Shown here: positions 1,685-28,983 of the stretch, one piece after another | How positions within the stretch are numbered: position 1 is the stretch's first letter | How the letters are laid out: the number at the start of each line of letters is the position of its first letter | Virus record (IMG/VR): IMGVR_UViG_3300036930_000262 | Location: 1-31,886 of that record | Direction: 5' to 3' (one strand) | From: a virus | Length of the DNA stretch: 31,886 nt | The notes under the pieces: generated by a model | What the model was told of the DNA's origin: nothing | Databases searched by the model: none | The model's input: only the letters and a program-made list of their open reading frames with translations | Made by a program: the position numbers and the translations under genes

Positions 1685-2029
1685 TCAGGCCGCGATTTTA
1701 CGCCGCAGCAGCATGATGCCGCCGAGGCAATAAGGGCTCCCGCACTCGCACGGCTGCTCATGCAGGCCGGCCGGCGTTTTCTCGCCGCGGAGCAGGCATT
1801 CCGGGTTCTGGAGTATGTAGAGCAGCAGCTCGTGGCGCCCGTTTACCTGGGCGCGCTCGCACATCTCGTCAATGCGGCGGTACGCCGTGGACACGGCGAT
1901 TTCGAGGGCCCCCGCGATTACCTTGGGGTCCTTCGCTTCCCAGAGCAGCGCCGCGATTTCACGCTCGGTCCGGTCAAACGAGATCATAATTGCCATTATT
2001 TTAGCAATTCGACAAAGAATAATCCTCAT
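1685..2029 (-). CDS. LuxR/GerE-type HTH regulator with C-terminal Cys cluster
   Basis: The segment ISFDRTEREIAALLWEAKDP through RRIDEMCERAQV to HELLLYI has the layout of a LuxR C-terminal (GerE) helix-turn-helix: an acidic TEREI helix 1, a recognition region around VIAGALEIAVSTAYRRI and a closing hydrophobic helix. No receiver or sensor domain is present, so it is a stand-alone DNA-binding protein of at most 114 residues. The C-terminus adds CECGSPYC, a possible metal site. Starts at 2029, 1996 or 1987 are all possible. The ATG at 1987 would place the 1988-2009 inverted repeat directly before the gene and allow autoregulation. It may be a lysogeny or early regulator, since no CI/Cro-like protein is recognised elsewhere. 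Confidence 0.75.
   Translation of the reverse strand: MRIILCRIAKIMAIMISFDRTEREIAALLWEAKDPKVIAGALEIAVSTAYRRIDEMCERAQVNGRHELLLYILQNPECLLRGEKTPAGLHEQPCECGSPYCLGGIMLLRRKIAA
1988..2009. promoter_or_regulatory. AT-rich inverted repeat, candidate operator
   Basis: AATTGC (1988-1993) and GCAATT (2004-2009) form an inverted repeat with a 10-bp AT-rich centre, in an otherwise GC-rich genome. It overlaps or immediately precedes the start of the HTH gene on the minus strand. The core TAGCAATT recurs, on the opposite strand, in the divergent promoter region near 26754-26762. Confidence 0.4.
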
Positions 2030-2048
2030 TGTTAGACGGGGTTTCCAC

Positions 2049-2082
2049 TTTCCGGGTTTTCTCTCGGAAATGCTTTTTTTCT
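2049..2082 (+). terminator. Candidate weak intrinsic terminator
   Basis: TTTCCG (2049-2054) pairs with CGGAAA (2065-2070) around a 10-nt loop and is followed by a run of seven T within 2074-2080. The 6-bp stem is weak. It would stop rightward read-through ahead of the early operon that begins at 2121. Confidence 0.4.
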
Positions 2083-2107
2083 AATAAGTTACCCGCGAGC
2101 CTGGCGT

Positions 2108-2120
2108 TACAACTGGGGTC
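2108..2120 (+). promoter_or_regulatory. Candidate -10 box of the early operon
   Basis: TACAAC at 2108-2113 is followed by 7 nt and then the ATG at 2121. This is the same -10-to-start spacing seen for 26717 and nearly that of 1586. No convincing -35 hexamer was found, so this rests on spacing and position only. Confidence 0.3.
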
Positions 2121-2594
2121 ATGCCCCCCACAGCAATCAAAGCGCCCGTCGCGTTCAGCGCGGCCGACGCCGACGAGCTGGGCGAGCTCCAAAGACAGAT
2201 CGACTTGCTCGATCCCGTCATCGCCCGATACAAAGTTTTGACCGAACGCGCCGACGACGCAGCCAAGGCGTCGCCGAAGGACGAGCCCGTGGTTTACCGC
2301 GGCGCGTACTGGGAACTGCAACTCGGCCCGCGGCGCAACGAGCGCACGGTCACCGAGAAGTGGAAAGCTTTCGTGTACCTGCGCAAGCTGCTCACGTACG
2401 AGGGCCTGGTCGCGGTCCTCGACATCCCGCTCGGGTTGATCGACAAGAACGTGCCCGACTCGATATCGAGGCCGTGGATCGTGAAAGAGCAGAGCGGGTA
2501 CCGGTCGCGCAAGCTCGTGGCGCTCGCGCCGCTGGCGGCCGAGCTGCCCGTGGCGCTGGCGCCGCTGGCGGCCGAGCTGCTGAAGGCGGCGTAG
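2121..2594 (+). CDS. Hypothetical early protein
   Basis: Not recognised; 157 residues. The N-terminal half (about 10-50) is a heptad-like helix rich in Leu, Asp and Glu (ADELGELQRQIDLLDPVIARY). A middle region (YWELQLGPRRNERTVTEKWKAFVYLRKLLTYEGLVAVLDIPL) looks globular. The C-terminus ends in a near-duplicated Ala/Leu segment (VALAPLAAEL twice, about 12 residues apart). It is the first gene of the rightward early operon, and the next gene follows after 1 bp. The start codon lies 7 nt behind a possible -10 box and has no clear Shine-Dalgarno sequence. Confidence 0.75.
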   Translation: MPPTAIKAPVAFSAADADELGELQRQIDLLDPVIARYKVLTERADDAAKASPKDEPVVYRGAYWELQLGPRRNERTVTEKWKAFVYLRKLLTYEGLVAVLDIPLGLIDKNVPDSISRPWIVKEQSGYRSRKLVALAPLAAELPVALAPLAAELLKAA

Positions 2595-2595
2595 G

Positions 2596-2739
2596 ATGAC
2601 GGTTCGCTGGCTGGGTTTCGTCGTCGAGCTTCGGTGGGAGGGCTGGCGCGCGCGCATCGTCTGCCCGCGCTGCAAACGCTCGGCCCGCTGGGGCTGGCAC
2701 GGGACCTGGCGCGGCTGGTCACTCTGCAAGGAGCGATGA
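2596..2739 (+). CDS. Trp-rich zinc-knuckle microprotein
   Basis: A 47-residue protein with CPRC at about residues 23-26 and a further Cys at 44, surrounded by seven Trp. This suggests a small, perhaps three-ligand or dimeric, metal-binding fold. It begins 1 bp after the previous stop, with GTAGG as a short ribosome-binding site. Its stop abuts the ATG of the next gene, so it sits in the operon with no spare bases. The function is unknown. Its reality is supported by this packing rather than by homology. Confidence 0.55.
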   Translation: MTVRWLGFVVELRWEGWRARIVCPRCKRSARWGWHGTWRGWSLCKER

Positions 2740-3204
2740 ATGGAAGACGAAAACGACAAGATTTGGGTTTGGCCGTTGGCGGCGATGGCGATAGTGGCGC
2801 TCGCTGCCGTTGTGGGCAGCTTCTGGACGCAACATCATCAGCGCGCGTCGTTGCGTGCGGCTGAGCCTCCCCCTTACATACAAAGCTCCGACCTAGGCTT
2901 AGCCGTGCCCAGTCCACCGCACGCCTCGGAGTGCTTCGATGTGCAGCTCTCAAAGGTGAGCGCGGCCCAATTTCGAATGACGGGGTACAACCATTGCGCT
3001 GTTACGCTGCCAACTGTGGTTGTCCTTGTCAAATTCTTCGACGGGCAGGGCAGGCGGGTCGGGGTCGGATCGTTCGCTTCCTTTTACGTGGCTGCTCACG
3101 AGAAGGAAATGCATGTGTTCCCGGCGCCGCCGGAGGTTTGGGGACTCTTCAGTAGAGTGGCAGTGCGGGAGATCACGGAGGACCTGAGCGAGGCGCGGAA
3201 ATGA
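2740..3204 (+). CDS. Membrane-anchored hypothetical protein
   Basis: 154 residues with a single N-terminal transmembrane segment (WVWPLAAMAIVALAAVVG, about residues 9-26) preceded by a short acidic start, so probably N-in with the rest outside the cytoplasm. The remainder looks like one small beta-rich domain with two Cys (ECFDVQ and YNHCAV) that could form a disulfide. The pattern of polar-hydrophobic strands (VVVLVKFFDGQGRRVGVGSFASFYV) resembles FxLyD-type extracellular domains, but this is only a resemblance. AAGGAGCG upstream serves as ribosome-binding site. It overlaps the next start by 4 bp. A role in superinfection exclusion is possible but unsupported. Confidence 0.7.
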   Translation: MEDENDKIWVWPLAAMAIVALAAVVGSFWTQHHQRASLRAAEPPPYIQSSDLGLAVPSPPHASECFDVQLSKVSAAQFRMTGYNHCAVTLPTVVVLVKFFDGQGRRVGVGSFASFYVAAHEKEMHVFPAPPEVWGLFSRVAVREITEDLSEARK

Positions 3205-3368
3205 ACGGTGTCACCTTAGCCGACGCCTGGGCCTCGCGCGCCGCCGACTACCTCGCGTCGCGCCGGGCCGCGCGCGTCGTCAAGCTAAACGTAGTCAGTT
3301 TGAATGACGCCTGGGCCTCGCGCGCCGCGGACTACCTTGCATCGCGCCGGGCCGCGCGCGTCGTCAAG
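3201..3368 (+). repeat. 84-bp in-frame tandem duplication
   Basis: Bases 3201-3284 and 3285-3368 encode two copies of a 28-residue unit. The last 63 bp of each copy differ at only a few positions, while the first 21 bp have diverged more. The duplication is therefore recent but not brand new. Confidence 0.85.
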
Positions 3369-3620
3369 CCGCGGGCGGTCACCGCCGAGCCCTATCGGCG
3401 GCCGCCCTGTGAGCCGGGCGAACGGCGGCAGGAGCTCTCGCCGCGGCTGTGCGGGATCTGCCTGCTGGTCAGCGAGGGCAAGACGAACCGCGACATCGCG
3501 GAGGCTCTCGATCTGTCCGAAGGCACCGTTAGGGTCTATGTTTCAAAGACGCTCCAGATTTTGGGCTTCCACTCGCGCAACCAGATCATCATGTGGTATC
3601 TGAAAGGCGGCAAGCTATGA
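3201..3620 (+). CDS. LuxR/GerE HTH protein with duplicated N-terminus
   Basis: The C-terminal 60 or so residues (from ELSPRLCGICLLVSEGKTN to the end) match the LuxR-type helix-turn-helix pattern: LSPR start, GKTNRDIAEALDLSEGTVRVYV recognition unit and LGFHSRNQII final helix. The first 56 residues are two near-identical copies of a 28-residue unit containing DAWASRAADYLASRRAARVVK. The repeated unit is a strongly basic helix, so the copy number may change DNA affinity or oligomer state. The gene overlaps both neighbours by 4 bp (ATGA type). A role in timing the early-to-middle switch is an inference from its position just upstream of the sigma factor. Confidence 0.85.
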   Translation: MNGVTLADAWASRAADYLASRRAARVVKLNVVSLNDAWASRAADYLASRRAARVVKPRAVTAEPYRRPPCEPGERRQELSPRLCGICLLVSEGKTNRDIAEALDLSEGTVRVYVSKTLQILGFHSRNQIIMWYLKGGKL

Positions 3621-3850
3621 GCGATTTGATGAGCCGACCCTACAAGCCGGACCCGGCGCGCTGCTGCGAGGCGTGCGCGTTCGGCCGCGGCGAGCATGCG
3701 GAATGGTGCGTAGTGCGCACCTGCGCAAAACCGCCGCAGCAACCGGTGCGCCTCTGCCCCCTCTGCGACTTGCCGCTGCGACTAAACCCGCAAACACTGA
3801 TGTGGGTATGTGTCCCCGATGGCGACCTCAACCAAAAGCGAGCAGGCTAA
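3617..3850 (+). CDS. Double zinc-knuckle small protein
   Basis: A 77-residue protein with two Cys clusters: CCEACAF followed by WC and TC in the first half, and LCPLCDLPLRL followed by WVCV in the second. The second cluster is a typical zinc-ribbon arrangement, CPLC plus a distal Cys. The ATG at 3617 overlaps the preceding stop (ATGA). Its 3' end overlaps the next gene by about 30 bp. It probably binds nucleic acid or protein in the early phase. No family name can be given. Confidence 0.65.
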   Translation: MSDLMSRPYKPDPARCCEACAFGRGEHAEWCVVRTCAKPPQQPVRLCPLCDLPLRLNPQTLMWVCVPDGDLNQKRAG

Positions 3851-4232
3851 GCGCCGGCGGACGATCGCCAAGGGCGCGGTCGCGGGCAAACCGCTCAAGG
3901 CGATCGCGCGCGAGGCGCAGTGCTCGAAGCGTCAAGTGCAGCGCGTCGAGGCCGAGCCGGAGACCCAGTTCCTAATCTCGGAGGCTTTACGGCCTCACCG
4001 CCAGCGCCTGACCAAGCTGGCCGGCAAAGTCATCTCAGCCGTTGAACGCGGCCTGCTGGCGCGCAAGACCGACAAGGCCGACCGCATCGTACAACTACGC
4101 GCGGTCGAGAGATACGCCGACCTGGTCGGGCTAGCCCAGGGCAAAGCCGCCGCTCCCGAGGGCGGCGACCGATCGCTCGTGACCTGGGAAGAGTTCGTAA
4201 TCTTATACCGTTCCCGCAAGGAGGCCGAGTAA
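3819..4232 (+). CDS. HTH protein, candidate terminase small subunit
   Basis: 137 residues from the ATG at 3819 (a GTG at 3810 is also possible). The N-terminus is basic (KSEQAKRRRTIAKG) and leads into a homeodomain-like helix-turn-helix (KPLKAIAREAQCSKRQVQRVEAE, about residues 25-50). A long helical region follows (ALRPHRQRLTKLAGKVISAVERGLL). HTH plus helical oligomerisation region is the usual design of small terminase subunits, which bind the packaging site and pass DNA to the large subunit. The large subunit starts 1.5 kb downstream in the same operon. A transcription-factor role cannot be excluded. Confidence 0.55.
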   Translation: MATSTKSEQAKRRRTIAKGAVAGKPLKAIAREAQCSKRQVQRVEAEPETQFLISEALRPHRQRLTKLAGKVISAVERGLLARKTDKADRIVQLRAVERYADLVGLAQGKAAAPEGGDRSLVTWEEFVILYRSRKEAE

Positions 4233-4233
4233 C

Positions 4234-4905
4234 ATGCCCGTGATCCGCATCACTGCCGAGCTTTGGGCGGAGGTCATGCACTCGCTCAAGGCGGGCCGCA
4301 AGGTCCCCGCGGTGAGGGCCGCGAACTGGCAGGCCGGCGTCGATGCGCTGGTGGTTGAGCACATGCCGGCGGCAGCCAACATCGCACGCAAAGTGTGGCG
4401 CGACTACACGCGCAGCGGTCAGGGCGGCTACGCACTCAAGATCGAACTCTCCGACATGGAGTCGTGCGCCTATCTGGGCTTGGTTCAGGCGGCGCGGCGC
4501 TACGATCCGAGCTATGGGCCGTTTGCGCATTTCGCGTATAAGCACGTCCACGGCGCCATCATCGACCGCTACCGGCGCGCCGCTTACCGGGACATGCAGC
4601 ACGCTTCGATCGACGCGGATCCGGAACGCGACGAGGAGCGCAAGCAGTTCGCGGCCCCGCCGGCCGGCCGGAGAGCCCCTACCGATACACCCGCCGAACT
4701 ACTGCGAGAGGCGCAGGCGGGCATCCTGGCCTCCGTCTGGGGGCTGCGCGCGGCCTGCCGGCAGGTGATCTTTGGCCTCTACTTTGAGGAACTCTCCGCG
4801 ACTCAACTGGCGCAACGCATGGGCATCAGCGTGGCTCAGGTGGGCGTGCTGCGGCGGGAGGGCCTGGCCGCGCTGCGCCCCGATGCAGAAAGGCTGGCAG
4901 CATGA
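4234..4905 (+). CDS. Phage-encoded sigma-70-family RNA polymerase sigma factor
   Basis: 223 residues. Region 2 (about 72-115) is clear: an SDMESCAYLGLVQAARRYDP core-binding helix, then FAHFAYKHVHGAIIDRYRR, the -10-recognition and melting part. The second half has a region-4-like helix-turn-helix (LYFEELSATQLAQRMGISVAQVGVLRREGL, about 180-212) for -35 binding. There is no region 1.1, and the linker between the two regions is short. This fits a minimal factor of the FliA/WhiG/SigB type. A strong AAGGAGG precedes the ATG at 4234. The likely role is redirecting host RNA polymerase to late phage promoters. The repeated start-proximal motif found from 7982 onward is the natural candidate target. 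Confidence 0.85.
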   Translation: MPVIRITAELWAEVMHSLKAGRKVPAVRAANWQAGVDALVVEHMPAAANIARKVWRDYTRSGQGGYALKIELSDMESCAYLGLVQAARRYDPSYGPFAHFAYKHVHGAIIDRYRRAAYRDMQHASIDADPERDEERKQFAAPPAGRRAPTDTPAELLREAQAGILASVWGLRAACRQVIFGLYFEELSATQLAQRMGISVAQVGVLRREGLAALRPDAERLAA

Positions 4906-5438
4906 CGCCCGCAGCGCGCGAAATCCAGACTCTCGAAAAGGAGATTCACATCCTGGAGGCCGGCGCGATCGCGCGCGCCACTTCCGCCATCGAGTTCAAG
5001 GTCGAGATTGGGAAGCGCCTGGTCCGCGCCAAGGAGATTCTCCCGCATGGCCAGTTTCTGGGATGGGCCCAGAAGGAATTCTCATGGACGCCGATGCATG
5101 TGAACCGGCACATCCATCTCGCGCGAAACATAACACGCGTGTTATCTTTGGGACCCGAGGCCAGCCTGCGCGGGGCGCTGGCCGCCATCGCGGCGCCCGA
5201 GTGGAACGCCACACCAGGCGAGCCGGCGGCCAGCGCGGCGGTCAAGGCGCTGCGCGTGGTGTTCGAGGACACAGGTGAACGGCGCTTCCCGGGGAAAGAG
5301 GAGTATTACGTGTGCCTCGGCCAACCTGGAGCCGAGTTGAGCCTGTGTCACGATTCCCATCCCACCTGGTGCGGCACACCGGCGGACTACGCCATCCTCC
5401 GCGTCGTACGCGACGACTTCCGGCAGGCCGCTGCATGA
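4902..5438 (+). CDS. DUF3102-like protein
   Basis: 178 residues. The segment VEIGKRLVRAKEILPHGQFLGWAQKEFSWTPMHVNRHIHLAR (about 33-75) matches the DUF3102 pattern found in phages and mobile elements: an IGKRL..AK..LPHG.F..W....F.W helix pair followed by an HTH-like helix. The first 25 residues form a charged helix. The C-terminal part (about 125-178) contains EEYYVCLGQPGAELSLCHDSHPTWC, an unrelated small Cys/His-bearing region. It overlaps the upstream sigma gene and the downstream gene by 4 bp each. DUF3102 proteins have no firmly established role; DNA binding is probable. Confidence 0.75.
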   Translation: MTPAAREIQTLEKEIHILEAGAIARATSAIEFKVEIGKRLVRAKEILPHGQFLGWAQKEFSWTPMHVNRHIHLARNITRVLSLGPEASLRGALAAIAAPEWNATPGEPAASAAVKALRVVFEDTGERRFPGKEEYYVCLGQPGAELSLCHDSHPTWCGTPADYAILRVVRDDFRQAAA

Positions 5439-5725
5439 GTCCGGCGCTCAGCTACGTCGAGCGCGTCCACGCGCAAAACGCTGAGCAGGTTCGCGCGTGG
5501 CGCGCGCGGCGGGCCCCAGACGTCCAAACGTGCGAATACTCAAGCGTGCAGCCGCATTCGCTCTACGTTCGCGAGTACCGGGCCCGCTTGCAGCGCCAGG
5601 GGTACGACTACCGCGGCGTTCGCGAGCAGCGCAGCCGCCGGGCCCGGTTCGCACGCGGGATCCGCCTCCTGGAGCTGGCCTGGGCGAGCGCGATGATGTA
5701 CCCGCACAGGGTGGGGAGTTGGTGA
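5435..5725 (+). CDS. Arg-rich hypothetical protein
   Basis: 96 residues and not recognised. It is strongly basic (AEQVRAWRARR, REYRARLQRQ, REQRSRRARFARG) and predicted helical, ending with a short hydrophobic stretch (LELAWASAMMYPH). The ATG at 5435 overlaps the preceding stop (ATGA). An upstream extension of the frame exists but lies inside the previous gene. It ends 4 bp before the terminase start. A role next to packaging, as an accessory or DNA-binding protein, is only suggested by position. Confidence 0.55.
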   Translation: MSPALSYVERVHAQNAEQVRAWRARRAPDVQTCEYSSVQPHSLYVREYRARLQRQGYDYRGVREQRSRRARFARGIRLLELAWASAMMYPHRVGSW

Positions 5726-5729
5726 CTGA

Positions 5730-7460
5730 ATGAATCCCGAGGAGATTTATTCGGGCTTCCAGGATCACGCGCGGTTCTGCCGCGAGTCGCTGATGGTCGA
5801 GGCGGAGGACAAGCGGCTGGGTCTGGTGCCCATGGTCCTCGGGCCGGGGCAGGTCAAGCTTTCCGAAGCCATCCGGCTGCAGCGAGAGAAAGAAGTCCCG
5901 GTTCGCATCATCTACCTGAAATCACGCCGCATTCAGGCGAGCACCGGCACCGCGGCCGAGTTCTTTCACGACACCATCGCGGACGGCGGAGTTCGAACGC
6001 TGGTACTCGGGCATCAGGAAGACTCGACGCGCACACTGTTCAAGATGTACCGGCGCTTTCACGAGCAATATAAGCCTTACGCCGGCGCGATCCGGTTGCC
6101 GCAACTGGTCGATTCGCGGGGGCTTCCGCTTGACACCCCGCTCTCCGAACGCCTCGATTACGGGAACCACTCGACCATCATGTGCCACACGGCCGGCAGC
6201 ACGACTTACGGCCGCTCGGATCGTTTCACCAACGTGCATTTTTCGGAGTTCCCCTACTACAACAGTCCGGGCGAGATCCGCACGGCGGTGATGTCCGCGG
6301 TCCCGAAACTGCCGCACACGTGCGTGGTGATTGAGGGCACGGCGGCCACCGTAGGCGACGAGTTTCATACCATGTGTACCGAGGCGCAGGCGGGCCGCTC
6401 GGACTGGGTGTTCCTCTTCATGGCGTGGCAGGATCACCCCAGCAACCGCATGCCCCTGCCCATGCCCGTTGGGCAGTTTATGAACGGACTGAGCCGCGAC
6501 GACCGGGATACCTACGAGCGGCTGGGCCTCCGTCCCGAGCAGATGTGCTGGTATCTCTACACGCTCCGGAACGACTGCAATAACGACCGGCAGAAGATGC
6601 GCCGCGAGCATCCGGCGAGTCCGGAGGAAGCCTTCACGGCGTCAAGCAGAAACCGTTTCAGCGTGCCCCACATTATGCGGATGCCCGTGCAGCGCGAGGC
6701 CATGCAGGGAGAAATCGAGGCGCGGGCGGTGGGCGACGAGGAGCGCATGGTCTGGATGCCGAACGAGGCCGGCTGTGTGAAGATGTACCGGCGCCCCGAG
6801 CGCGGCAAGGTATACGCGTGCGGGTCGGACTGTTCGCAGGGACTCGACGCCAACGAAGGCGGGTCGCCCGACTCCGATTACTGGACGGCGCAGATGCTCG
6901 ATCGGGATACCGGTGAGCAGGTGGCGGTGGCCAGGGCGCGCAAGATGCCGGGCGAGTCGGGCCGCTACCTTGCCAGGTTCCTGCGCCTCTATAACAACGC
7001 GCAATGCGCCGGCGAGCGCAACCCGGGGGGCGGCGGAATCGCCATGCTCGAAGCCGTGATGGACGCGGGCTACCCGAAAGACCTGCTCTATCACGACGTC
7101 ATCAACATCGAGGAGGACCCGCGCGTCCGCGGTACGCGCCTGGGCTGGTCGACGACCGGCGCCAGCCGGCCATTACTTGTTTCCTTGCTCGACGACGCGA
7201 TCCGGGAAGAGTCCATCTTCGTGCGCGATCCGGAGACCCAGGCGGAGCTGCTGACGTTCGTTTATTGGCCGGACGGAAAGGCACGGGCGCAAAAACGATG
7301 CCACGACGACTTGGTGATCGGGCTCGCCCTGGCGTGGATCGTGGTTCTGCGTATGCCGCGGCCGCGGCCGAAGAGCGACCAGATGCGGCCCGAGGTGCGG
7401 AAGTACGGACAGCGGCCTGGCGAAGTAGACCCCAGGGGGGCGCGTGTTCGGCTCCGATGA
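5730..7460 (+). CDS. terL: Terminase large subunit
   Basis: Motor and nuclease that packages DNA into the prohead. The 576 residues comprise an N-terminal ATPase and a C-terminal RNase H-like nuclease. The ATPase has an atypical Walker A (YLKSRRIQAST, about 62-72, with Arg/Gln-rich spacing like other phage terminases), a Walker B VHFSEF (Glu173 catalytic) and a coupling motif EGTA (202-205). The nuclease shows YACGSDCSQG (Asp367), a middle acidic motif near ERNPGGGG and the closing CHDD (Asp526/527), which together bind two metals. Length and order match full-length TerL. It follows the early operon with a 4-bp gap and overlaps the next gene by 4 bp. Confidence 0.95.
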   Translation: MNPEEIYSGFQDHARFCRESLMVEAEDKRLGLVPMVLGPGQVKLSEAIRLQREKEVPVRIIYLKSRRIQASTGTAAEFFHDTIADGGVRTLVLGHQEDSTRTLFKMYRRFHEQYKPYAGAIRLPQLVDSRGLPLDTPLSERLDYGNHSTIMCHTAGSTTYGRSDRFTNVHFSEFPYYNSPGEIRTAVMSAVPKLPHTCVVIEGTAATVGDEFHTMCTEAQAGRSDWVFLFMAWQDHPSNRMPLPMPVGQFMNGLSRDDRDTYERLGLRPEQMCWYLYTLRNDCNNDRQKMRREHPASPEEAFTASSRNRFSVPHIMRMPVQREAMQGEIEARAVGDEERMVWMPNEAGCVKMYRRPERGKVYACGSDCSQGLDANEGGSPDSDYWTAQMLDRDTGEQVAVARARKMPGESGRYLARFLRLYNNAQCAGERNPGGGGIAMLEAVMDAGYPKDLLYHDVINIEEDPRVRGTRLGWSTTGASRPLLVSLLDDAIREESIFVRDPETQAELLTFVYWPDGKARAQKRCHDDLVIGLALAWIVVLRMPRPRPKSDQMRPEVRKYGQRPGEVDPRGARVRLR

Positions 7461-7663
7461 CCAGGATTCACAGTGCGCCGCTGCCGGCGGTCCTGCATGA
7501 GCAACTCGACGACCTGCTGTTACATCGTGAGACGTGCCAGCCGGGGCGCGACGGCTGCGCCGTCTGCGCGCGGCTGTACGCGGTCACCGGCAGCCTGCTG
7601 GCGCCGTTCGCCGAGAAGCACTACGAGATCACAATCCGGGCGCAGAGGGCGCGGGCGGCGTGA
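7457..7663 (+). CDS. Small Cys-pair protein downstream of terL
   Basis: 68 residues: LHEQLDDLLLHRETCQPGRDGCAVCARLYAVTGSLL and so on. Three Cys in TCQPGRDGCAVC, with a nearby His, suggest a small zinc site between two helices. The ATG overlaps the terminase stop (ATGA), and its own stop overlaps the next ATG (TGATG), so translation is probably coupled. The function is unknown. Confidence 0.6.
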   Translation: MTRIHSAPLPAVLHEQLDDLLLHRETCQPGRDGCAVCARLYAVTGSLLAPFAEKHYEITIRAQRARAA

Positions 7664-7974
7664 TGAATCCCGCTGAGGTGGACTGGCAGCGTCGGGCAGG
7701 CCGAGACCGGGAGGGCGATAAATTCGACACTCTCGTCGCGGTTCACGGCAGCGGGCGCGTGCTGGCCCGCATCCAGTGCCCGGTGACTGCCGATGAGTAC
7801 TGGTACCGGGCTTTTTACTACTGCGCCGTCCCAAAAGAAATTCTCGACCCCAGCGAAGGCTACGATTTCATGGACGCCGACTCAGCAAAGCGAGCCGTGG
7901 AGGAGACGCTGGGCAAGTTCAACCCGCTCGCCCCACCGGCGAAAATCGCGGAACGCCCGAAAGAGATAGCGTAG
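7663..7974 (+). CDS. Hypothetical protein between terminase and portal
   Basis: 103 residues from an ATG overlapping the previous stop. It contains VAVHGSGRVLARIQCPVTADEYWYRAFYYCAVPKEIL, which looks like one alpha/beta domain rich in aromatics, and a Pro-rich tail. No family is recognised. It is the last gene of the upstream coupled block. A 22-bp gap with the conserved start-proximal motif follows, so the transcription unit may change here. Confidence 0.6.
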   Translation: MNPAEVDWQRRAGRDREGDKFDTLVAVHGSGRVLARIQCPVTADEYWYRAFYYCAVPKEILDPSEGYDFMDADSAKRAVEETLGKFNPLAPPAKIAERPKEIA

Positions 7975-7981
7975 CTGCCCC

Positions 7982-7996
7982 GGCGAATAAACTGGT
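7982..7996 (+). promoter_or_regulatory. Start-proximal motif (candidate late promoter) before the portal gene
   Basis: GGCGAATA at 7982-7989, then AACTGGT, then the GTG start at 7997. The 8-mer resembles the GCCGATAA -10 box of FliA-type sigma factors. A 7-nt spacing would put the transcription start on the start codon itself. Confidence 0.5.
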
Positions 7997-10264
7997 GTGG
8001 CTCCCAACACGCCTTTGCCGGCCTCACCGCCGGCCCCGCCCCCCGCGACCGACCAGGCCGACGCGCCGAAACCGAAGACGCAGCGCGACTTTCAGTTGAA
8101 GTGGCCGCAGGCGGAACTGTCGCGCATCGGCAACCGGGTGCTGCAGGACTACCGCGCGGCGCTGTCGGATCATAACCGCCGCATCGCGCGCTGGGCGATC
8201 TACTTCCGCAGGTGGCTCGGCAGCGTGGACACTCCCGCTGTGGGCGAAGAGGGCGCGTCGAACCTCCCCGTTCCCTACATCAAGTGGAACATTCTGACCA
8301 AATGGGCCAAGGAAATGGACGCGCTTTTTGGCGACGACGCCGAGATTGTGGCCGTGCCGGTCGGCGCTTCCGACTATAAGCGCGATAAGAAAATCGGCAA
8401 ATACATGAGCTGGCGGGTGTTCAACTCCATGAAGCTGACCAGCCGCTTTTGCGAGTTCGTTTTGCGCAAGCTACTGTTCGGCCGCTCGATCGCCTACGCG
8501 CCGTGGAAGCGCGACACGTTCGAGGTTTTGAACCCTCAACGCGACTATCAGCCCGAGGAGGTCGTCGATTACGAAGGGCCGGAGTTCGAACCGCTCTGGC
8601 CGGACGATTGGATCGTGCCCGTGGAGGAGGTCAAGAGCCTCCATGAGTTCAGCTTCGTGATCCGGCGGTATCGTACGACGCCCGACAAGCTACTCAAGGG
8701 CGAAGAGGACGGGCGGTATCAGGGCATCACCAAGAACTGGGATCAGATCCTCGCGCTGGCGCAGCGCGGCATGCAGCGCGCCTGGGAAGGCGAGGAAATC
8801 AAGCTCGAAAAAGACGAGATGGAGGGGCTGCAATACCAACGGCCACTCTCCTCGGGCGAGTCCGTGATGGTGCTCGAATGGTACGGGCAGTGGCGGCCGC
8901 TGCGGAAAGGCCCGCGCGGCGGCATGTCCGACGCGAGCGAGTGGGACACTAAGCGCCGCGAGATGACGCACGGCGAGTTCGTGGTGCGCTATATCCTGGA
9001 CCTGAACCTGTGTATCGGCATCCAGGACCTGCGCGAGCTGTATCCCACGAAGAAGCACCGGCGACCGTTCGTCGAAGCATCGATGTTCAAAGACGGGCGC
9101 TATTGGTCGGCGGGCATGGCCGAGCTGCTCATCGATCTCGAAGACGAACTGCGCGTCAACCATAACCAGGCGACCGAAGCGGGGCAGTTGGCGATGACGC
9201 CGATGTTTGGGTACCGGCCGGCGTCGGGCGCCAATCCCGACACGTTCAAGGTCGAGCCAGGGCTTTTCATTCCGCTGGATAACCCGCAGACGGACGTCGT
9301 GCAGATCAAGATCAGCGCGAACATGGAGATCGCGCAGTGGAAAGAGCAGTGCGTGCTGGCCTACGGCGAGAAACTCACCGGCCAGGGCGATTTGCAGATG
9401 GGCAGGCAGAGCGACCGGCCGAACGCGCCGCGCACGGTCGGGCAAACCGTTTCGCTGCTCGAAGAGGGCAACGTCCGGATCTCGCTCGACACCAAGGTGC
9501 TGAGAGAGGACATGGCGGGCGTACTGGCGCACTTCTGGGACCTGGAATATATGTTCTCGCCCGAGCAGACCTTTTTCCGGGTCACCGAGGAGGACGCGGC
9601 GGGCCTGTTCCCGGTGAACGACGGCGGCTCGATGTTGACCATGGACGATCGGGACGGGCGCTACGATTTCCGGCTGCAGTTCGCCAACAGTGTGTATTCG
9701 CGCGAGGCTAAGAAGCAGCAGGCCTTGGCGCGCTACCAGCTCGATTTGCAGAACCCGCTGATTGTGCAGAACGCGCCGGCGCTGTGGGAAGTCACCAACC
9801 AGGCGCACGAGGCGCTGGGGGATCCCAATTTTGGGGACATGGTTCCGAAGCCGCCGAAGCCCGACGCTTCGGTGGATCCGAAGACCGAATGGGTGGAGCT
9901 GCTGCACGGCGAAGACATCCACGTCAATCCGCAGGATAACGATCTGCTGCACATGATCCGGCACATGCGCGACCTGAAGGCGGCCGAAGCGGCGCCAGGC
10001 GGCGCGACGGGCGACCCCGACTCGGTCAAGAAGATGGCGCTCCACTACCACGAGCACATCCAGCAGTTGCAGCAGAAGAGGCTCCAGCAGGCCGTTGTCG
10101 AGCAGGCGGTGCAAGCAGCCCAAGCTCTTGCAGGCGCCGGGAAACCGCTTGCGTTTCCGAACGGCCTGTTTGGCAATGCGCCCCAGGAGCCGGCGGGGAA
10201 CCCCGCGGCCACGGGGCCGGCGATCTACAGCGGACACGCGGAGGACCTGCACGGGGAATCGTAG
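7997..10264 (+). CDS. Portal protein
   Basis: 755 residues; forms the dodecameric ring at the packaging vertex through which DNA enters and leaves. After a Pro-rich start (1-35), the core shows portal-like features: ALSDHNRRIARWAIYFRRW, a conserved VPYIKWNILTKWAKEMDALFG segment, the wing region EPLWPDDWIVP, and HRRPFVEASMFKDGRYWSAGMAELL followed by DLEDELRVNHNQATEAGQL in the crown-proximal helices. The C-terminal 100 residues are Gln/Ala-rich and helical (HEHIQQLQQKRLQQAVVEQAVQ), like the barrel of long podovirus-type portals. The GTG start is chosen because the conserved motif abuts it; no Shine-Dalgarno is present. The size favours a short-tailed phage. Confidence 0.88.
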   Translation: MAPNTPLPASPPAPPPATDQADAPKPKTQRDFQLKWPQAELSRIGNRVLQDYRAALSDHNRRIARWAIYFRRWLGSVDTPAVGEEGASNLPVPYIKWNILTKWAKEMDALFGDDAEIVAVPVGASDYKRDKKIGKYMSWRVFNSMKLTSRFCEFVLRKLLFGRSIAYAPWKRDTFEVLNPQRDYQPEEVVDYEGPEFEPLWPDDWIVPVEEVKSLHEFSFVIRRYRTTPDKLLKGEEDGRYQGITKNWDQILALAQRGMQRAWEGEEIKLEKDEMEGLQYQRPLSSGESVMVLEWYGQWRPLRKGPRGGMSDASEWDTKRREMTHGEFVVRYILDLNLCIGIQDLRELYPTKKHRRPFVEASMFKDGRYWSAGMAELLIDLEDELRVNHNQATEAGQLAMTPMFGYRPASGANPDTFKVEPGLFIPLDNPQTDVVQIKISANMEIAQWKEQCVLAYGEKLTGQGDLQMGRQSDRPNAPRTVGQTVSLLEEGNVRISLDTKVLREDMAGVLAHFWDLEYMFSPEQTFFRVTEEDAAGLFPVNDGGSMLTMDDRDGRYDFRLQFANSVYSREAKKQQALARYQLDLQNPLIVQNAPALWEVTNQAHEALGDPNFGDMVPKPPKPDASVDPKTEWVELLHGEDIHVNPQDNDLLHMIRHMRDLKAAEAAPGGATGDPDSVKKMALHYHEHIQQLQQKRLQQAVVEQAVQAAQALAGAGKPLAFPNGLFGNAPQEPAGNPAATGPAIYSGHAEDLHGES

Positions 10265-10274
10265 GTGAATAAAA

Positions 10275-10523
10275 GTGAATAACCCTCGCCCCGTCCGTTC
10301 CGACGCGGTGGCGGCGGACCTGTTCGACAAGATGCTGGCCAGCGCGGAGTTCGGCAAATTGTGGACGCGTGTGACCGCCGAGCGCGATCGCGCGGCCTCC
10401 CGGTGCTTGCGAGAAACCGACCTGGTAGAGCTGCGGCGGGCGCAAGGGGCGGCGGCGGCGCTCACGGCCGCGCTGGGGTTGCCGGCGCAGATGCTCGGCG
10501 AGATGCGAGCGGGCAAGCGATAA
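10275..10523 (+). CDS. Small helical protein downstream of portal
   Basis: 82 residues from a GTG; helical, with FDKMLASAEFGKLWTRVTAERDRAASRCLRETDLVELRRAQGAAAALTAALGLP. Small helical proteins in this position are common between portal and scaffold genes, and some are head-completion or chaperone-like proteins, but nothing here is diagnostic. A weak relative of the start-proximal motif (GGTGAATA, 10264-10271) precedes it by 3 nt. Confidence 0.6.
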   Translation: MNNPRPVRSDAVAADLFDKMLASAEFGKLWTRVTAERDRAASRCLRETDLVELRRAQGAAAALTAALGLPAQMLGEMRAGKR

Positions 10524-10525
10524 CT

Positions 10526-10540
10526 GTCGAAGACCCCGGT
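10526..10540 (+). promoter_or_regulatory. Start-proximal motif before 10541
   Basis: GTCGAAGA (10526-10533), CCCCGGT, then ATG. The 7-nt spacing is exact and the spacer is almost the same as at 24399-24405. Confidence 0.45.
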
Positions 10541-10852
10541 ATGCATTACGCAAACGGACAAGAAGCGAAGCTCGGAGACCTGGTTTACCAGCGCTCCGAT
10601 TATCCCGGCGGACCCGAAGTGGTTGGCGTACTAATCGCTGCGAAGGCCTCCTCGGAACCCTGCACCGCCACTATGCTGGCGCTGGCCACCCGCTATGACA
10701 GCGACCTTGGCCCAACCATCTGGACGCCAGGGATAGCCGGAAGCTCCTGGTGCACGACGGTCCCGAAGCTGTTGCCGCTCTCTCCGGCGGCAATGCCTGT
10801 TTCTCCGGACGCGCCGCCCCCCGACGCTCCGCCCTGTTCCGACCAGGCATAA
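10541..10852 (+). CDS. Hypothetical protein in head module
   Basis: 103 residues, MHYANGQEAKLGDLVYQRSD onward. The N-terminal part (EAKLGDLVYQR, EVVGVLIAAKAS, CTATMLALATRY) reads as a small beta-barrel, similar in feel to phage proteins that begin with a YANG-EA-GD-V pattern. The C-terminal third is Pro/Ser-rich. Its start is fixed by the conserved motif ending directly before the ATG. The stop overlaps the next ATG. The role is unknown. Confidence 0.6.
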   Translation: MHYANGQEAKLGDLVYQRSDYPGGPEVVGVLIAAKASSEPCTATMLALATRYDSDLGPTIWTPGIAGSSWCTTVPKLLPLSPAAMPVSPDAPPPDAPPCSDQA

Positions 10853-11205
10853 TGAGCGGCGTCGTCATCGCCGTCGCCTGCAACTACTGCTCGAGGCAGC
10901 GCGCGCCGTTCCGCGTCCACCGCATGACGTCGGGGCAACACATTTGCGACGACTGCCTGGCGTGGCACTTTCACGCGCTCGATTTCCTGGGTGGGGCGAC
11001 GCCTAAGGGGTGTCAGGAATGCGGCCGGACATGGGAAACCATGCAGGCCGAATCGCCCGACGCCGAGCTGGCCATCCGGGTTTTCGTGGTGGCGAAGGAC
11101 GGCATCTATCAGATGCTCTGCGCACCCTGTGCGCAAGCATTCCTGCCGAAGACCCCCGATCTCTATAAGGGAACCAAATTTGGAAGCGAGGTTTTACATC
11201 TATGA
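10852..11205 (+). CDS. Four-knuckle zinc-binding protein
   Basis: 117 residues with four Cys pairs in order: CNYC (about 10-13), CDDC (about 35-38), CQECG (about 57-60) and CAPC (about 97-100). They could build two zinc ribbons. The region between the third and fourth pairs (AELAIRVFVVAKDGIYQMLC) is a regular beta-hairpin. The ATG at 10852 overlaps the preceding stop, and its own stop overlaps the scaffold-like gene by 4 bp. Zinc-ribbon proteins inside head modules are unusual. It may be a regulator carried in the operon rather than a virion part. Confidence 0.65.
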   Translation: MSGVVIAVACNYCSRQRAPFRVHRMTSGQHICDDCLAWHFHALDFLGGATPKGCQECGRTWETMQAESPDAELAIRVFVVAKDGIYQMLCAPCAQAFLPKTPDLYKGTKFGSEVLHL

Positions 11206-13101: not shown

Positions 13102-13116
13102 GGCGAATAAGCTTGC
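13102..13116 (+). promoter_or_regulatory. Start-proximal motif before 13128, followed by Shine-Dalgarno
   Basis: GGCGAATA (13102-13109), AGCTTGC, then AGGGGG and a short spacer to the GTG at 13128. If transcription starts 8 nt after the motif, the mRNA would have an 11-nt leader consisting mostly of the ribosome-binding site. Confidence 0.45.
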
Positions 13117-15829: not shown

Positions 15830-15844
15830 GGCGAATTACCGGGT
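15830..15844 (+). promoter_or_regulatory. Start-proximal motif before the fibre gene
   Basis: GGCGAATT (15830-15837), ACCGGGT and then GTG at 15845. The 7-nt spacing is exact and there is no Shine-Dalgarno. Confidence 0.5.
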
Positions 15845-17014
15845 GTGAAACGCCTCTCGATTCTTCTCGCGCTGGCCGCGCGGATGCTGTACGGCCAGGC
15901 CCTCACTTTTCCCGCCGGCCCGACGGTCGGCCCGAACCAGGTCTTCGTCTCCACGAGCTGGCTGTACGCCAACAAAATGGATTACCGCGGCGCCTGGAAT
16001 GCCGGCGTCGTCTACAACAGCGAGGATGCGGTGGTTTCCGCAGGCTCGACGTACGTGAGCCTGCAGGCGCTCAACCTCGGTGAGAACCCCGCGACCTCAC
16101 CGTCCTACTGGGCGGCGATCGGCGGCGGGGGCGGCGGGGGCGGCGGGGCTAATTCGTTGGGCTATTACTTCATGGCGCAGGCCACGAACGCGCCAGCCAA
16201 TGGCCTAAACCTTGGCGCTTTATCCACCGGACTGCTAAAGATCACCGTGAGCGGCGGTACTGCTGCGCCGTCCATGGCGGTCCCGGGCGTCGATTACGAG
16301 CCTGGTGCCGGAAACCCTTCAACTAACGGCTACTGTTGGACATCGACCACGGCGGGCGTGCGGAGTTGGGCTGCGTGTGGGTCCGGCAGTATGGTTTATC
16401 CCGGTGCAGGCCTTCCGATCTCAACCGGCAGTGCCTGGGGGACATCGATTCCCCGGTTGGACGCCCTGGTGAGCATCTTCGATCCCGCATTCGGCGGGTG
16501 CGGCGCCTGTAACGCGGCCACCAACGCCGCCGCCCTCACGGCGGCAATGACAGCATCCAGGCGTGTGTATACGGGCCTAGGCGCCGGGGATGCCGGGTTC
16601 CTCTGGAGCGTCACGGATTATGCCCACTTGCTCCGCTGGACGGGGACGGGCTGGGAATTCCTGGACGCGGCGGGCAATTATATCGCGGGATGCGCCGGGG
16701 CCCCGGGTGGCAGCGGCTGGCAACTCTGCGACGGCAGCGCGACGAGCTACCTGCAAGTGGCCGCCGGGATCGCCTCGGCGGTCGCGTTTACGACGCCGAA
16801 CCTTGCCACGACGGCCGCCTATCTGAAATTTGGGGCGGGGTATAGCGCCTCGATCGCGGCGGCCACCGTCCCCACCGCCGGCGGGGCGAGCGCCACCGCG
16901 GCGGTCGCGTCGGGCAGCGGAGCGACGCCGGCCTCGGGGGCGCACGTTCACACGATCGCGCTTCCGGCCGACCCCGTGGCGAACCTGCAGGTGGTCGCGT
17001 ACTACAGGCGATAG
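15845..17014 (+). CDS. Tail-fibre-like protein with CBM5/12-like module
   Basis: 389 residues. An N-terminal hydrophobic segment (KRLSILLALAARMLYGQA, residues 2-19) looks like a cleavable signal peptide, which is unusual for a phage fibre. Residues 46-91 (YRGAWNAGVVYNSEDAVVS... YWAAIG) match the short chitin/carbohydrate-binding module of the CBM5/12 type often found in fibres. A Gly run (92-101) acts as a hinge. Then come two Gly/Ser-rich repeats and a C-terminal collar-like segment (GSGWQLCDGSATSYLQVA, later HVHTIALPADPVANLQVVAYYRR) typical of fibre or collar tips. It is likely the receptor-binding protein. If the N-terminus really is a signal, it would be exported, so an internal start or a membrane-anchored intermediate should be considered. 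Confidence 0.72.
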   Translation: MKRLSILLALAARMLYGQALTFPAGPTVGPNQVFVSTSWLYANKMDYRGAWNAGVVYNSEDAVVSAGSTYVSLQALNLGENPATSPSYWAAIGGGGGGGGGANSLGYYFMAQATNAPANGLNLGALSTGLLKITVSGGTAAPSMAVPGVDYEPGAGNPSTNGYCWTSTTAGVRSWAACGSGSMVYPGAGLPISTGSAWGTSIPRLDALVSIFDPAFGGCGACNAATNAAALTAAMTASRRVYTGLGAGDAGFLWSVTDYAHLLRWTGTGWEFLDAAGNYIAGCAGAPGGSGWQLCDGSATSYLQVAAGIASAVAFTTPNLATTAAYLKFGAGYSASIAAATVPTAGGASATAAVASGSGATPASGAHVHTIALPADPVANLQVVAYYRR

Positions 17015-17024
17015 CTTGCTGCGG

Positions 17025-17039
17025 GGCGAATGCCCCGGT
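17025..17039 (+). promoter_or_regulatory. Start-proximal motif before the GNAT gene
   Basis: GGCGAATG (17025-17032), CCCCGGT, then two more bases before the ATG at 17042. This is the one case with a 9-nt gap. GGGGC-GAAT-GCCCC can also fold as a tetraloop hairpin here (17023-17036). Confidence 0.4.
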
Positions 17040-17041
17040 AT

Positions 17042-17866
17042 ATGGCCATCGAACTCGTCGAGCCGTTCCCTGCGATGTACTGGCCGCTGGCGTGGGCGTG
17101 GCTCGATGCCGCGCGCTCGCAGGCGTGCGACGACTTCTCTCCCAAGACCCCCGAAGAATTTGTCGAATTACATCTTGAGGCCTGCCGGGGCTGGCGCTCG
17201 TTCGGCGTGTTGCGGGACGGGCAGCTCGGCGGGGTGATTCTGTTTGAGCCGGCGTCGCCGGCGCTGGCGATCATGCACGTGCTGTATGCGCGGCGCATGT
17301 GGGGGAAAGAAACGGTGGCGGCGTCGCGGATGGCGTGCGCGCGGCTGTTCGAATCGACCGAGGTTGGGAAGATTTTGGGCCTGGTGCCGGCCAACAACCG
17401 GCTGGCGATCGCGCTGGCAGTGCGGGGCGGGGGAAAGGTCGAGGGGGTCCTGCGGCAGCACTCGCGGCGGGACGGGAAACCGCTCGACGCGGTAGCGGTG
17501 GGGATCACGAGGGAGGATTTCAATGGGACTGAGCTTCGGCGGAACGACGACGGACAGCAATGCAAAAGCGCAAACGCTGCCCGCGATGAATCCTCTACAG
17601 GGATCGCTGCAACAGACGCTCTCGAGCGTACTCCAATCGCTGGTGCCGGCGGTGGGGAGCGGGGGGATCTCGCCGAACGTCCAGGCGACGCAGACGGCGG
17701 CCGACAACGAGACGAACCAGAACTACTCGTCGCTGGGAACGCGCATGAACCGGTTCCTGGCCGCGCGCGGGTTCGGGCAAAGCGGGCAAGCGGGGCAAAC
17801 GCAGCTCCAGACCGAGCTGTCAAGGCAGGGCGCGATCGGAAAAAACGCGTCCAACGCGGCAAATAG
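17042..17866 (+). CDS. GNAT-like acetyltransferase with long overlap of the next gene
   Basis: The first 160 residues or so have a GNAT layout: WRSFGVLRDGQLGGVILFEP (beta-2 to beta-4), ALAIMHVLYARRMWGKETVAASRMACARLFES (acetyl-CoA-binding region and helix 3) and KILGLVPANNRLAIALAVRGGGKVEGVLR (beta-5 with NN-A helix and beta-6). GNAT proteins of this type are encoded near tail genes in several podoviruses, with unknown targets. After about residue 160 the frame continues for 115 residues that are Arg/Gly/Asp-rich and look like an out-of-frame read of the gene at 17523. The frame has no earlier stop, so either the tail is a non-functional appendage or translation ends early by another means. An alternative start is the ATG at 17030. 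Confidence 0.65.
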   Translation: MAIELVEPFPAMYWPLAWAWLDAARSQACDDFSPKTPEEFVELHLEACRGWRSFGVLRDGQLGGVILFEPASPALAIMHVLYARRMWGKETVAASRMACARLFESTEVGKILGLVPANNRLAIALAVRGGGKVEGVLRQHSRRDGKPLDAVAVGITREDFNGTELRRNDDGQQCKSANAARDESSTGIAATDALERTPIAGAGGGERGDLAERPGDADGGRQRDEPELLVAGNAHEPVPGRARVRAKRASGANAAPDRAVKAGRDRKKRVQRGK

Positions 17867-19507: not shown

Positions 19508-22500
19508 GTGGCGGACCAGAGCTTCAGCTCGTTTGTCGCCCAGGACCAGAGCGAGGCGGCGGCGGCCCCGCCCCGCCAGGCTTTCGGCGATTGGCTAAAG
19601 GCCGGCGCCGCTACGCCGACGACCAGCGGAGTCACCGCCGGCGGCCATAGCTACACCGCGCCGAAGATCTCCGACACGCTCGGCGATCCCAACGCCATCA
19701 ACGCGCAGACCTGGCAGGCCGCGCGAGTAGCCGCGAAAGCGATGACGGACCCCGCGCGGTTCGCGCCCGGCCCCTCGCTCGCCGATCGCGTGCGCACGAT
19801 CGCCGGGCAAGCCGGCCAGGTGGCCACCACGCACGCCGTGAAGGCGCTGGGTGGATCCACCATGACCGAGCTATGGGACATGGCCGGCCAATCCGCTAAA
19901 AGTCTCGTCGAGCATGTGACCGGCGAGAACTGGGAAGCCACGCGCGCGACGCTGCCCGCGCCGGCGAAGACCGCCGAATTCCTATTTCACGCGAGTAAGA
20001 TCATCCCCGGCATCGTCGATTTCCTGTTTACACCGCTTGGCGCGGCGACCGGACCCGCGGCCGAGTTGGGCGGCCCCGCCGCGCAGGCCGCCATCGGCGC
20101 AGCCTTTGGAACACAGATGGCGGGCGCCACGAAGGACGCCTACAAAAACTACAAAAAGACACCGTCCGCCTCGAGCGCAGGCGACCTGGTGGCCAGCGCC
20201 GCGGGTACACTCTTGCCGGCGGTCCACGCGGCCGGTACCGAATATCAGAACCAGGTGCGCGCGGCTTATATCGAGCGCGCGCGCGGCCCGGCACAGGAAT
20301 ACACGAGCACGGGCGAGCCCATACGGCGCGCTGGATCGGAGAACACACATGAAGAGTCCACTCGCACGACCGGGGCGCAAGAGCAGCCCCAAACAGTCGC
20401 AGGTCCGCAAGGGCAGCCTCATCGAGGCGCTGAACCAGGCGGCGGGAGCCAAGGACCGGCCAACGGCGCGGCCGGCGCTGCCGCCCCGGAGGTAGCGAAT
20501 GATAACCGTAGCGGTGGAAGTGTCGGGCAACCGCCCGGCGGCACTGGAGGAGATCGAGGACCTGGCGGGGCACAACCGCCTGTACCGGAAGGGAACGAAC
20601 ACGGCCCTGTATTTGGACTGCCCGGACCGGGCAACGGCGGGACTGCTGGCGCTCAACCTGGGGCTGATTCCGGGAGTGACGGCGGGAATCTTCGGCGGGT
20701 GACCGGTTCGGCCGATCTACCGCTGACTCCGGACGGGAAAGCGAACGCGGCCAAGCGGAATGTGCCGGCGGACGTGCAAGTGTTCCATGCGCCCAACCAA
20801 CGGTCGGAGGGGACGGCGCGCGGCGCCAGCGCGGGCGCGCGGCCGGCGAGCTGGCTGGCACCGTGGAAGCTGGGCGAGCACGAAGGGAAACCGGTAGAGG
20901 AGGCGCAGCCGGCGATCGATGAGCTGATGCGCAACCCGGGGCGAGCGCCCGGCGTGAGCGCGCACTCGGGCGAACAGGGCGAGAGCTTCGGGGCCGCGTC
21001 GCGGCGGCTTATCGACGGGGCCAACGCGCAGTACCGAGGGATCGGGCCGAACGATAAGGTCCTCAACATCACTTCCGGCAGGGCGCTGCAGATTATCGAC
21101 GCCAACGGAGATCCGGAAAGGATTATCGGGCGGCGGAAGGAGTTCCAGCGCGGGCAGATCTACCGGCGGACGGCGGAGGGGCTGACGCCGGCGGACCGCA
21201 TCGTTCCGGGGACTCAGAACTTCACGACGCATGAAGATACGGCGTGGAACCCGAGCAAGAAGGCAGGCGGGCCGGCCGTGCCGGCGGAAGGCCCAAACGG
21301 GCCGATTTGGCAGGAGTACTCCGGAAAGCCCGCGGAGGCCATCGCCAAGCTACAGCAGGAACAGCGGGGCGAAGTTCCGCGCGTATGGCGGAACGAGGAT
21401 CTGGCCAGGGCGACGAACACGGACGGCTGGATTGGCTTGATCTGGGGCGATCTGAAGGGCGGCCTGGCGCACATCGTCGACAAACACGTTATCAGGCAGA
21501 AGGACCTGAAGCTCGAAGACCTTGCCGAGATGATTCCCCGGATGCGGGTGGCGGAGAACGACGGGCGGTCCGTAGTCCTGGAGAGCGACACGCACAGGGC
21601 GACCGTTCGATTGAGCTACGACGATGTAGAGAAGCGCTGGCTGGTGACAGCGTTTGAGAAGAGGCCATCTACCGGAGAGAGTCCAACCGGCCCCGGATCC
21701 CCGAATCGGGGTGGCGGCCCGGTCATTGCGCCGCCAAACGGCCCTTCGGTTCCTCCGGCTCCCGAGGGAAGCGGCGGTGCACCTGGTTCCAGTGTGGCTC
21801 CGGGGGGCGGCGCAGTCAAGCGGGTGGATCCGCTGCTCGGGACGCACGTGGATCCCAGCGCGGTGCGGCAATTCTTTGGCGACGAGACGGGGACCTCGCT
21901 GGTGGGGTCCATCCTCAGGGCCGACGCGAAAGAGGCGCTGGCTCTGAAGGCCAAGCGCGATGCGGCGCTGGCGGAGGTCGAGAAAGCCAAGGGCACGCCC
22001 GGGGAACAAAAGTTCGGGCAGAAAACCATCCACTATTTCACGGGCGAGCGCGATCTGTGGGGCGCACGGGTTAACCAGGTGATCGCGCGGTTGCGCAAGA
22101 TGGTTCCGGATCACGTCGAGCAGGAAGCGATCTCGCTGATGCGCGACTTCAAGGGGCGCGAGCAAGAGCTGACACAATTCCTGGCCGGGACGCACCCGGC
22201 GTTTCAGGACCTCGATTCGAAGCAGCCGCTGATGCGCGGGCTGGCGGGATCGGAAACGGCCACGGCGCGGGAACGCATCGAGCAGTTGCGGCCGGCGATC
22301 CTGCGGGCGCTCGATCCGACGCCGCGCATGAGGGAGGCGGACGCGGTATTGAGCAAGATTGCGGCGGGGACGCTGGCGGAGGGGCAGCGGCTGGGGATTC
22401 TGGAGAGCCGGTGGACGCCGGAGCAGTACAACCCGCACATCCTGCATCCCAAGGGCGAGGGCGAAGTGCCAACCGCGCCGGCGGGAGACCGCGTGGGGCG

Positions 22501-24124: not shown

Positions 24125-24139
24125 GTCGAATTAACCGGC
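24125..24139 (+). promoter_or_regulatory. Start-proximal motif before the lysis cassette, followed by Shine-Dalgarno
   Basis: GTCGAATT (24125-24132), AACCGGC, then GGGGGGAG and the GTG at 24150. It has the same two-part design as at 13102: motif, 7 nt, and a short leader made of the ribosome-binding site. Confidence 0.45.
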
Positions 24140-24390: not shown

Positions 24391-24405
24391 GGCGAATACC
24401 CCGGC
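24391..24405 (+). promoter_or_regulatory. Start-proximal motif before 24406
   Basis: GGCGAATA (24391-24398), CCCCGGC, then ATG at 24406. The 7-nt spacing is exact and there is no Shine-Dalgarno. This is the most complete example of the motif. Confidence 0.5.
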
Positions 24406-28830: not shown

Positions 28831-28983
28831 ATGAGCCAACCACGAAAGCCTTGGGGTGGTAAGCGCGCGGGCGCTGGCCGCCCACCCGCGACGAAAGCTC
28901 GCTGCGCCTGCGGGTTGCACACGCTGGCGCGTGCCGTGCGACTGCGGCTCGCCTGCCGGCGGGCGGCGAACATACGGACATGA
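28831..28983 (+). CDS. Small Arg/Cys-rich protein
   Basis: 50 residues. WGGKRAGAGRPPATKARCACGLHTLARAVRLRLACRRAA contains the GGKRAGAGRPP segment that starts many phage small-terminase-like and DNA-binding proteins, plus three Cys. It overlaps the resolvase start by 4 bp (ATGA). It may be a remnant of, or helper for, a DNA-binding protein. The short length limits any assignment. Confidence 0.5.
   Translation: MSQPRKPWGGKRAGAGRPPATKARCACGLHTLARAVRLRLACRRAANIRT

Follow-up and report, generated by a model that had tools for sequence, protein, structure and literature searches.

The late sigma factor of phage T4, gp55, has a promoter composed of a -10 element only; it has no conventional region 4 and depends on both gp33 and the sliding clamp. 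Two other phage sigma factors, phiEco32 gp36 and phage 7-11 gp47, direct the host polymerase to middle and late phage promoters (PMC8948821). The promoter of phiEco32 gp36 (phi32_gp36) is a single element, tAATGTAtA, with transcription starting 6-8 bp downstream of it (PMC8948821). FliA has a bipartite promoter, TAAAGTTT-n11-GCCGATAA, in which GCCGATAA is the -10 consensus (PMC2859248). In Deinococcus-Thermus, a -10 element (TANNNT, read by the host sigma factor) placed directly ahead of the ORF gives rise to a leaderless mRNA (PMC12340547). More generally, -10-like signals about 12 bp ahead of start codons mark leaderless genes; by prediction, such genes make up 9.7-19.4% of the total in each of three Acidobacteria genomes (PMC3160421).

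Here we describe a gene that is very likely the late sigma factor of a temperate phage family, using FliA-like -10 single-element promoters that yield leaderless mRNAs. It lies at 4234-4905 of the window, by which we mean the whole stretch of DNA analysed, an IMG/VR virus record that is 31,886 bases long and represents a prophage. Like phiEco32 gp36 and 7-11 gp47, its product would be a phage sigma factor that directs the host polymerase to phage promoters. Its predicted specificity differs from theirs, being the FliA-like GKCGAATA, and it belongs to a temperate prophage of an acidobacterium; in addition, the element is placed so that the predicted transcription start is the start codon, and no companion of the phi32_gp79 kind was identified for it. 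The element and its spacing fit a single-element promoter of the phiEco32 gp36 type with starts 6-8 bp downstream, the start sites here being predicted. The likeness to T4 gp55 lies in the late role and the -10-only promoter, both predicted for the window; the differences are that the window sigma has a region 4 in its structural model and no known co-activator.

FliA and WhiG (sigma-28) have the nearest region 2 by sequence, and the putative promoter core GKCGAATA resembles their -10 element GCCGATAA, which would fit the region 2 of the phage protein, itself FliA-like. In contrast to FliA and WhiG, the window sigma has no region 3 and falls far under the curated FliA cut-offs, and its motif matches the -10 part of the bipartite FliA promoter with no fixed -35. 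ECF sigma factors share with it the two-domain layout (region 2, linker, region 4) and the fold of region 4, whereas its region 2 is nearer to FliA, a cognate anti-sigma neighbour was not recognised, and its predicted promoter is a single element. The leaderless promoters of Deinococcus-Thermus likewise have a -10 element directly ahead of the ORF, but in the window family a phage sigma would read GKCGAATA.

The sigma factor and its surroundings

The gene order of the prophage runs from the integrase through a minus-strand HTH gene, early rightward genes, a second HTH gene, sigma, a DUF3102-like gene and TerL to the portal and head genes. The features referred to below are:

442-1398: tyrosine integrase
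1685-2029, minus strand: small protein of the HTH group of 3201-3620 (family search with 3201-3620)
3201-3620: LuxR-like HTH gene
3617-3850: small cysteine-rich gene shortly upstream of sigma, shared with many relatives
3810-4232, plus strand: HTH gene immediately upstream of sigma (phrog_645, E=1.9e-6; HTH_38, 0.004)
4234-4905, plus strand: phage sigma factor gene, two-domain sigma-70 family, ATG start, 223 aa (TIGR02937 and AlphaFold/structural matches)
4348-4584, plus strand: sigma region 2, FliA/WhiG-like, residues 39-117 (Pfam Sigma70_r2, 31.8 bits, cut-off 24)
4753-4878, plus strand: sigma region 4, weak by sequence, residues 174-215 (Pfam Sigma70_r4 and structure match)
5730-7460, plus strand: terminase large subunit (TerL), downstream of sigma (phrog_2, E=3.8e-18)
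7997-10264: portal gene

A preliminary description had read this ORF as a complete small sigma factor with regions 2 and 4, set between an HTH gene and the packaging genes. The setting is as described, with the HTH gene directly upstream and terminase and portal downstream, and profile searches place the protein in the sigma-70 family rather than among unrelated HTH proteins: it scores 66.1 bits against the superfamily model TIGR02937 over residues 37-215 (curated cut-off 42.9), with region 2 over the Pfam cut-off and nearest to FliA/WhiG. Region 4 scores 19.3 bits on residues 176-215, under the Sigma70_r4 cut-off of 24.1, and both domains are present in the AlphaFold model. This model, built from 29 family members (mean pLDDT 83, pTM 0.49), consists of two separate helical domains. 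Whole-model Foldseek comparisons returned low TM-scores, the domains being freely placed, and per-domain VIA-align matches were used instead: residues 30-117 match the N-terminal domain of SigE (Z 12.5, 1.2 Å over 77 residues), and for residues 155-223 the match is region 4 of E. coli sigmaE on -35 DNA (Z 11.4, 1.5 Å over 69 residues). ORF 4234-4905 thus encodes a true member of the sigma-70 family with two domains: region 2 is clear, region 4 is weak by sequence and well formed in the model, and region 3 is absent.

Alignment to E. coli FliA places YKHVHGAIIDRYRR in region 2 opposite FliA VQRIRGAMLDELRS and shows FliA region 3 to be deleted from the phage protein, which is also unusual in carrying two histidines where FliA and most relatives carry arginine. 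When the sigma family profile was searched against the PDB, FliA came first (E=3.3e-26), with WhiG and RpoS behind (RpoS, 3.8e-13). The FliA model is matched by 29/29 family members at E<=0.001; the comparison with the curated cut-off covers the window protein alone, which scores 38.8 bits, below the 189.6 required. As the window sigma passes no curated FliA cut-off, we do not file it as FliA: sequence and model together suggest a FliA-type region 2 inside an ECF-like two-domain frame. A tblastn search of 50,697 phage records with the protein gave just three weak matches, phiEco32 and 7-11 not among them, and the limited set of open papers searched held no description of it.

BLAST comparisons also give the window sigma a mosaic-like appearance. 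Residues 1-137 are 58-59% identical to the proteins of two related loci (L012 and L043); region 4 (145-223), searched as the C-terminal part, matches only that of L050 (38%), a member of another phage lineage, to which it is most similar.

The preliminary description had also stated that no anti-sigma or activator partner accompanies the gene, which goes beyond what the sequences show. No profile match to an anti-sigma was found in the scanned neighbours of sigma, but many relatives retain the genes at 3617-3850 and 3810-4232 beside it, with a homologue of the latter just ahead of sigma in about 18 of them. The product of 3810-4232 is possibly the small terminase subunit. The HTH gene at 1685-2029, a possible lysogeny repressor, is divergent and lies ahead of the early operon; one lineage apart, most relatives retain it. 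A consensus scan of 1900-8100 found no sigma-70 promoters for the early operon, and neither an Rfam family nor a tRNA was detected in the window.

Several other features of the prophage were noted. The LuxR-like gene has an internal 95% identical repeat (3222-3285 and 3306-3369) that encodes DAWASRAADYLASRRAARVVK twice. A 1533-aa ORF at 19508-24109 has matches to PBECR1 (nuclease-like) and histidine phosphatase domains, and a serine recombinase gene at 28980-29558 (resolvase domain, E=4e-45) is present besides the tyrosine integrase. The record closes on the right with a near-tandem repeat of about 110 bp (31664-31775 and 31787-31886, 88% identical). A Bryobacterales (Acidobacteriota) MAG carries the same prophage in contig PLGA01000164.1, where the last part of an aminotransferase (HisC-like) gene can be recognised by eye in the 538 flanking bases; this MAG was the one genome with the portal among 396 Acidobacteriota genomes. 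It contains a second related phage contig (C455 of G048, here L101), of which 9963-11029 is 99.9% identical to 16570-17636 of the window over 1067 bp, the upstream DNA being unrelated. L101 has GGCGAATA-N7-ATG sites of its own.

Distribution of the sigma gene in the phage family

A portal search of viral contigs gathered 49 related loci, the close ones with 57-83% protein identity. TIGR02937 matches 35/47 related records, and the window sigma alone as query retrieves 32. A family search found the family sigma in every locus that reaches well upstream of TerL; the 13 records without it start <800 nt from TerL or are without TerL altogether. The preliminary description had called such a factor unusual in a GC-rich temperate phage; it is no peculiarity of a single phage but a core feature of the whole family. 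An ECF-like candidate in another locus (L019, 6232-6781, after the portal) scored 34.6 bits, below the cut-off; it is a different protein and was left out of the counts.

The sigma gene changes faster than its neighbours, with a mean identity across the family of 37% (TerL 60%, portal 69%). Its distances track those of the portal (Spearman 0.60, permutation p 0.002), and its frame is open in all copies. Given the family-wide presence, the 37% mean identity and the distances that follow the portal, the comparison of sequences marks sigma as an old, fast-changing core gene of the phage family, not a recent passenger. The window copy sits on a long branch and has a weak region 4, as might be expected if sigma were a functionless accessory gene, newly gained or in decay; set against the presence of sigma throughout the family, the correlation with portal distances and the open frames, that explanation is the least probable of those we weighed. 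In one relative (L048, 6690-9124), one strand encodes the portal and the other sigma and TerL, yet the late sites remain ahead of the portal-side genes.

A sequence at a fixed distance from late gene starts

With no motif presumed, GTCGAAT is the top over-represented 7-mer upstream of the portal (15/36 loci, 0.77 expected), and it ranks first among all 7-mers at 7-9 nt ahead of start codons in 39 loci. We counted G[T/G]CGAAT at exactly 8 nt from an ATG or GTG of an ORF of >=45 aa in 28 dereplicated sigma-bearing loci. There are 56 such sites in 324 kb downstream of sigma on the sense strand, 0 in 139 kb upstream of it and 2 antisense; permuted CGAAT cores at the same spacing give at most 2 for any permutation. 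For GKCGAATA, the histogram of spacings in these loci peaks with 35 sites at a single distance, with neighbours <=3, and the base ahead of the start codon is a pyrimidine (T or C) in 31/35. An independent set of 15 contigs, retrieved later by sigma profile and having DNA identity to the discovery set of <=79% where similarity was found, has 16 sites at spacing 8 downstream in the sense direction (next highest spacing, 5), 1 upstream in the sense direction and 0 antisense. Direct observation covers the family membership of the sigma factor, the synteny and the motif, together with the motif's exact spacing, strand and restriction to the region downstream of sigma.

In the window itself, six plus-strand sites stand ahead of gene starts:

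7982-7988, plus strand: candidate promoter GGCGAAT-N8-GTG, portal gene (start 7997)
13102-13108, plus strand: site GGCGAATA, 19 nt ahead of the GTG of a 187-aa ORF (13128), GGGGG between; short leader possible
15830-15836, plus strand: candidate promoter GGCGAAT-N8-GTG, 389-aa late ORF (start 15845)
17025-17031, plus strand: site GGCGAAT-N10-ATG, 274-aa acyltransferase-like ORF (start 17042; phrog_4470)
24125-24131, plus strand: site GTCGAAT, 18 nt ahead of GTG 24150, GGGGGGAG between; short leader possible
24391-24397, plus strand: candidate promoter GGCGAAT-N8-ATG, 72-aa late ORF (start 24406)

GGCGAAT-N8-start occurs 3 times in the window, whereas the 1049 other permuted 7-mers average 0.03 occurrences and none exceeds 1. 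The preliminary description had the candidate target motifs begin at the portal gene and suggested a late switch: all plus-strand sites ahead of gene starts in the window indeed lie at or after 7982, and the family-wide comparison strongly supports the idea at the level of sequence.

The motif varies among relatives. Its second base (T or G) tracks lineages only roughly, and some relatives use the variants GCCGAATA and GGCGAAA. A search for sigma residues covarying with the second base gave no clean residue; lineages differ and some carry both bases. Several loci, such as L051, have no exact site in the stretch of sequence covered, and the contig of L010 is truncated; in L022, a longer copy of L010, a single GGCGAATA-N7-ATG site is present. 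Neither column information nor k-mer enrichment, computed over 75 and 89 sites, revealed a positionally fixed upstream element that could serve as a -35.

The resemblance of the motif to the FliA -10 element would also be expected if these were late promoters for a host sigma factor, for example host FliA, with the phage sigma serving another purpose such as reprogramming or takeover of host genes; phage-encoded sigma factors that act on host development exist (PMC9429907). In the 5.3-Mb Bryobacterales host MAG, however, 64 matches at spacing 8 compare with 60 at spacing 11, and part of the 64 fall within this prophage and L101. By these counts the 8-nt arrangement is not enriched in the host genome and is not a host signal. 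The phage sigma is moreover universal in the family and the sites lie only downstream of it, and we consider reading by a host factor unlikely.

Both the LuxR-like gene 3201-3620 and the HTH gene 3810-4232 encode HTH domains in the early operon, and the motif might be an operator through which one of them activates the late genes. Yet a lineage of five loci (L027, L030, L034, L048 and L055) has many sites and no detectable homologue of either gene, and sigma is thus the regulator common to all. A single exact distance to the start codon, together with a pyrimidine-purine initiator, is also unexpected for an operator, which makes this proposal very unlikely.

The fixed distance to start codons would equally suit a translation signal, that is, a ribosome site of non-Shine-Dalgarno type rather than a promoter. 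The motif, however, is not complementary to the 16S anti-Shine-Dalgarno and is absent upstream of sigma, and the early genes of the same phage, sigma among them, carry ordinary Shine-Dalgarno sequences (AAGGAGG stands ahead of the sigma ORF). At the two window sites with 18-19 nt, furthermore, a G-rich stretch separates the motif from the start codon, as would be the case for a short-leader promoter. We assign a translation signal a smaller probability still than an operator. A comparison of Shine-Dalgarno frequencies (1/61 motif-led against 60/192 other ORFs) is biased, the motif filling most of the tested stretch, and is not used as evidence.

Late control and its meaning for the family

With promoters for the phage sigma as the preferred reading, sigma would be expressed along with the early rightward genes and join the host core RNA polymerase. 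The promoters to which it would then guide the polymerase are single elements, G[T/G]CGAATA, without a positionally fixed -35. If the 6-8 bp distance known from phi32_gp36 applies here, transcription from an element that ends 8 nt ahead of the start codon would begin on the start codon itself, where the pyrimidine followed by a purine looks like a YR initiator. With this spacing, the majority of the late mRNAs concerned would lack a leader, and a stretch of about 15 bp would act as promoter and translation start together. We infer the binding of polymerase, the recognition of the motif by sigma, the start sites and the timing. The presence of region 4 where no fixed -35 was found counts against this best explanation. 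It is nonetheless likely that such units of about 15 bp, read by a phage sigma of FliA-like specificity without a -35, drive the late genes of the whole family and place transcription starts precisely at the start codon; many late genes would then each have a separate promoter and a leaderless mRNA.

Phage late sigma factors with promoters of their own are already known. New here is a two-domain sigma of FliA-like character, carried by an uncultured temperate family, whose predicted single-element promoter is positioned so that one and the same base would begin both the transcript and its translation. The small sigma and its short, fixed and apparently host-orthogonal promoter are a candidate for a practical tool. 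For the phages, the finding extends late sigma factors to a temperate, GC-rich lineage with FliA-like specificity, and it gives an uncultured soil phage family, one member of which resides in an acidobacterial genome, a testable late-control system comprising a factor and its candidate target sites. If true, the position of one short element would tie a phage sigma to leaderless translation, and one small module probably sets both the transcription and the translation starts of the virus particle genes.
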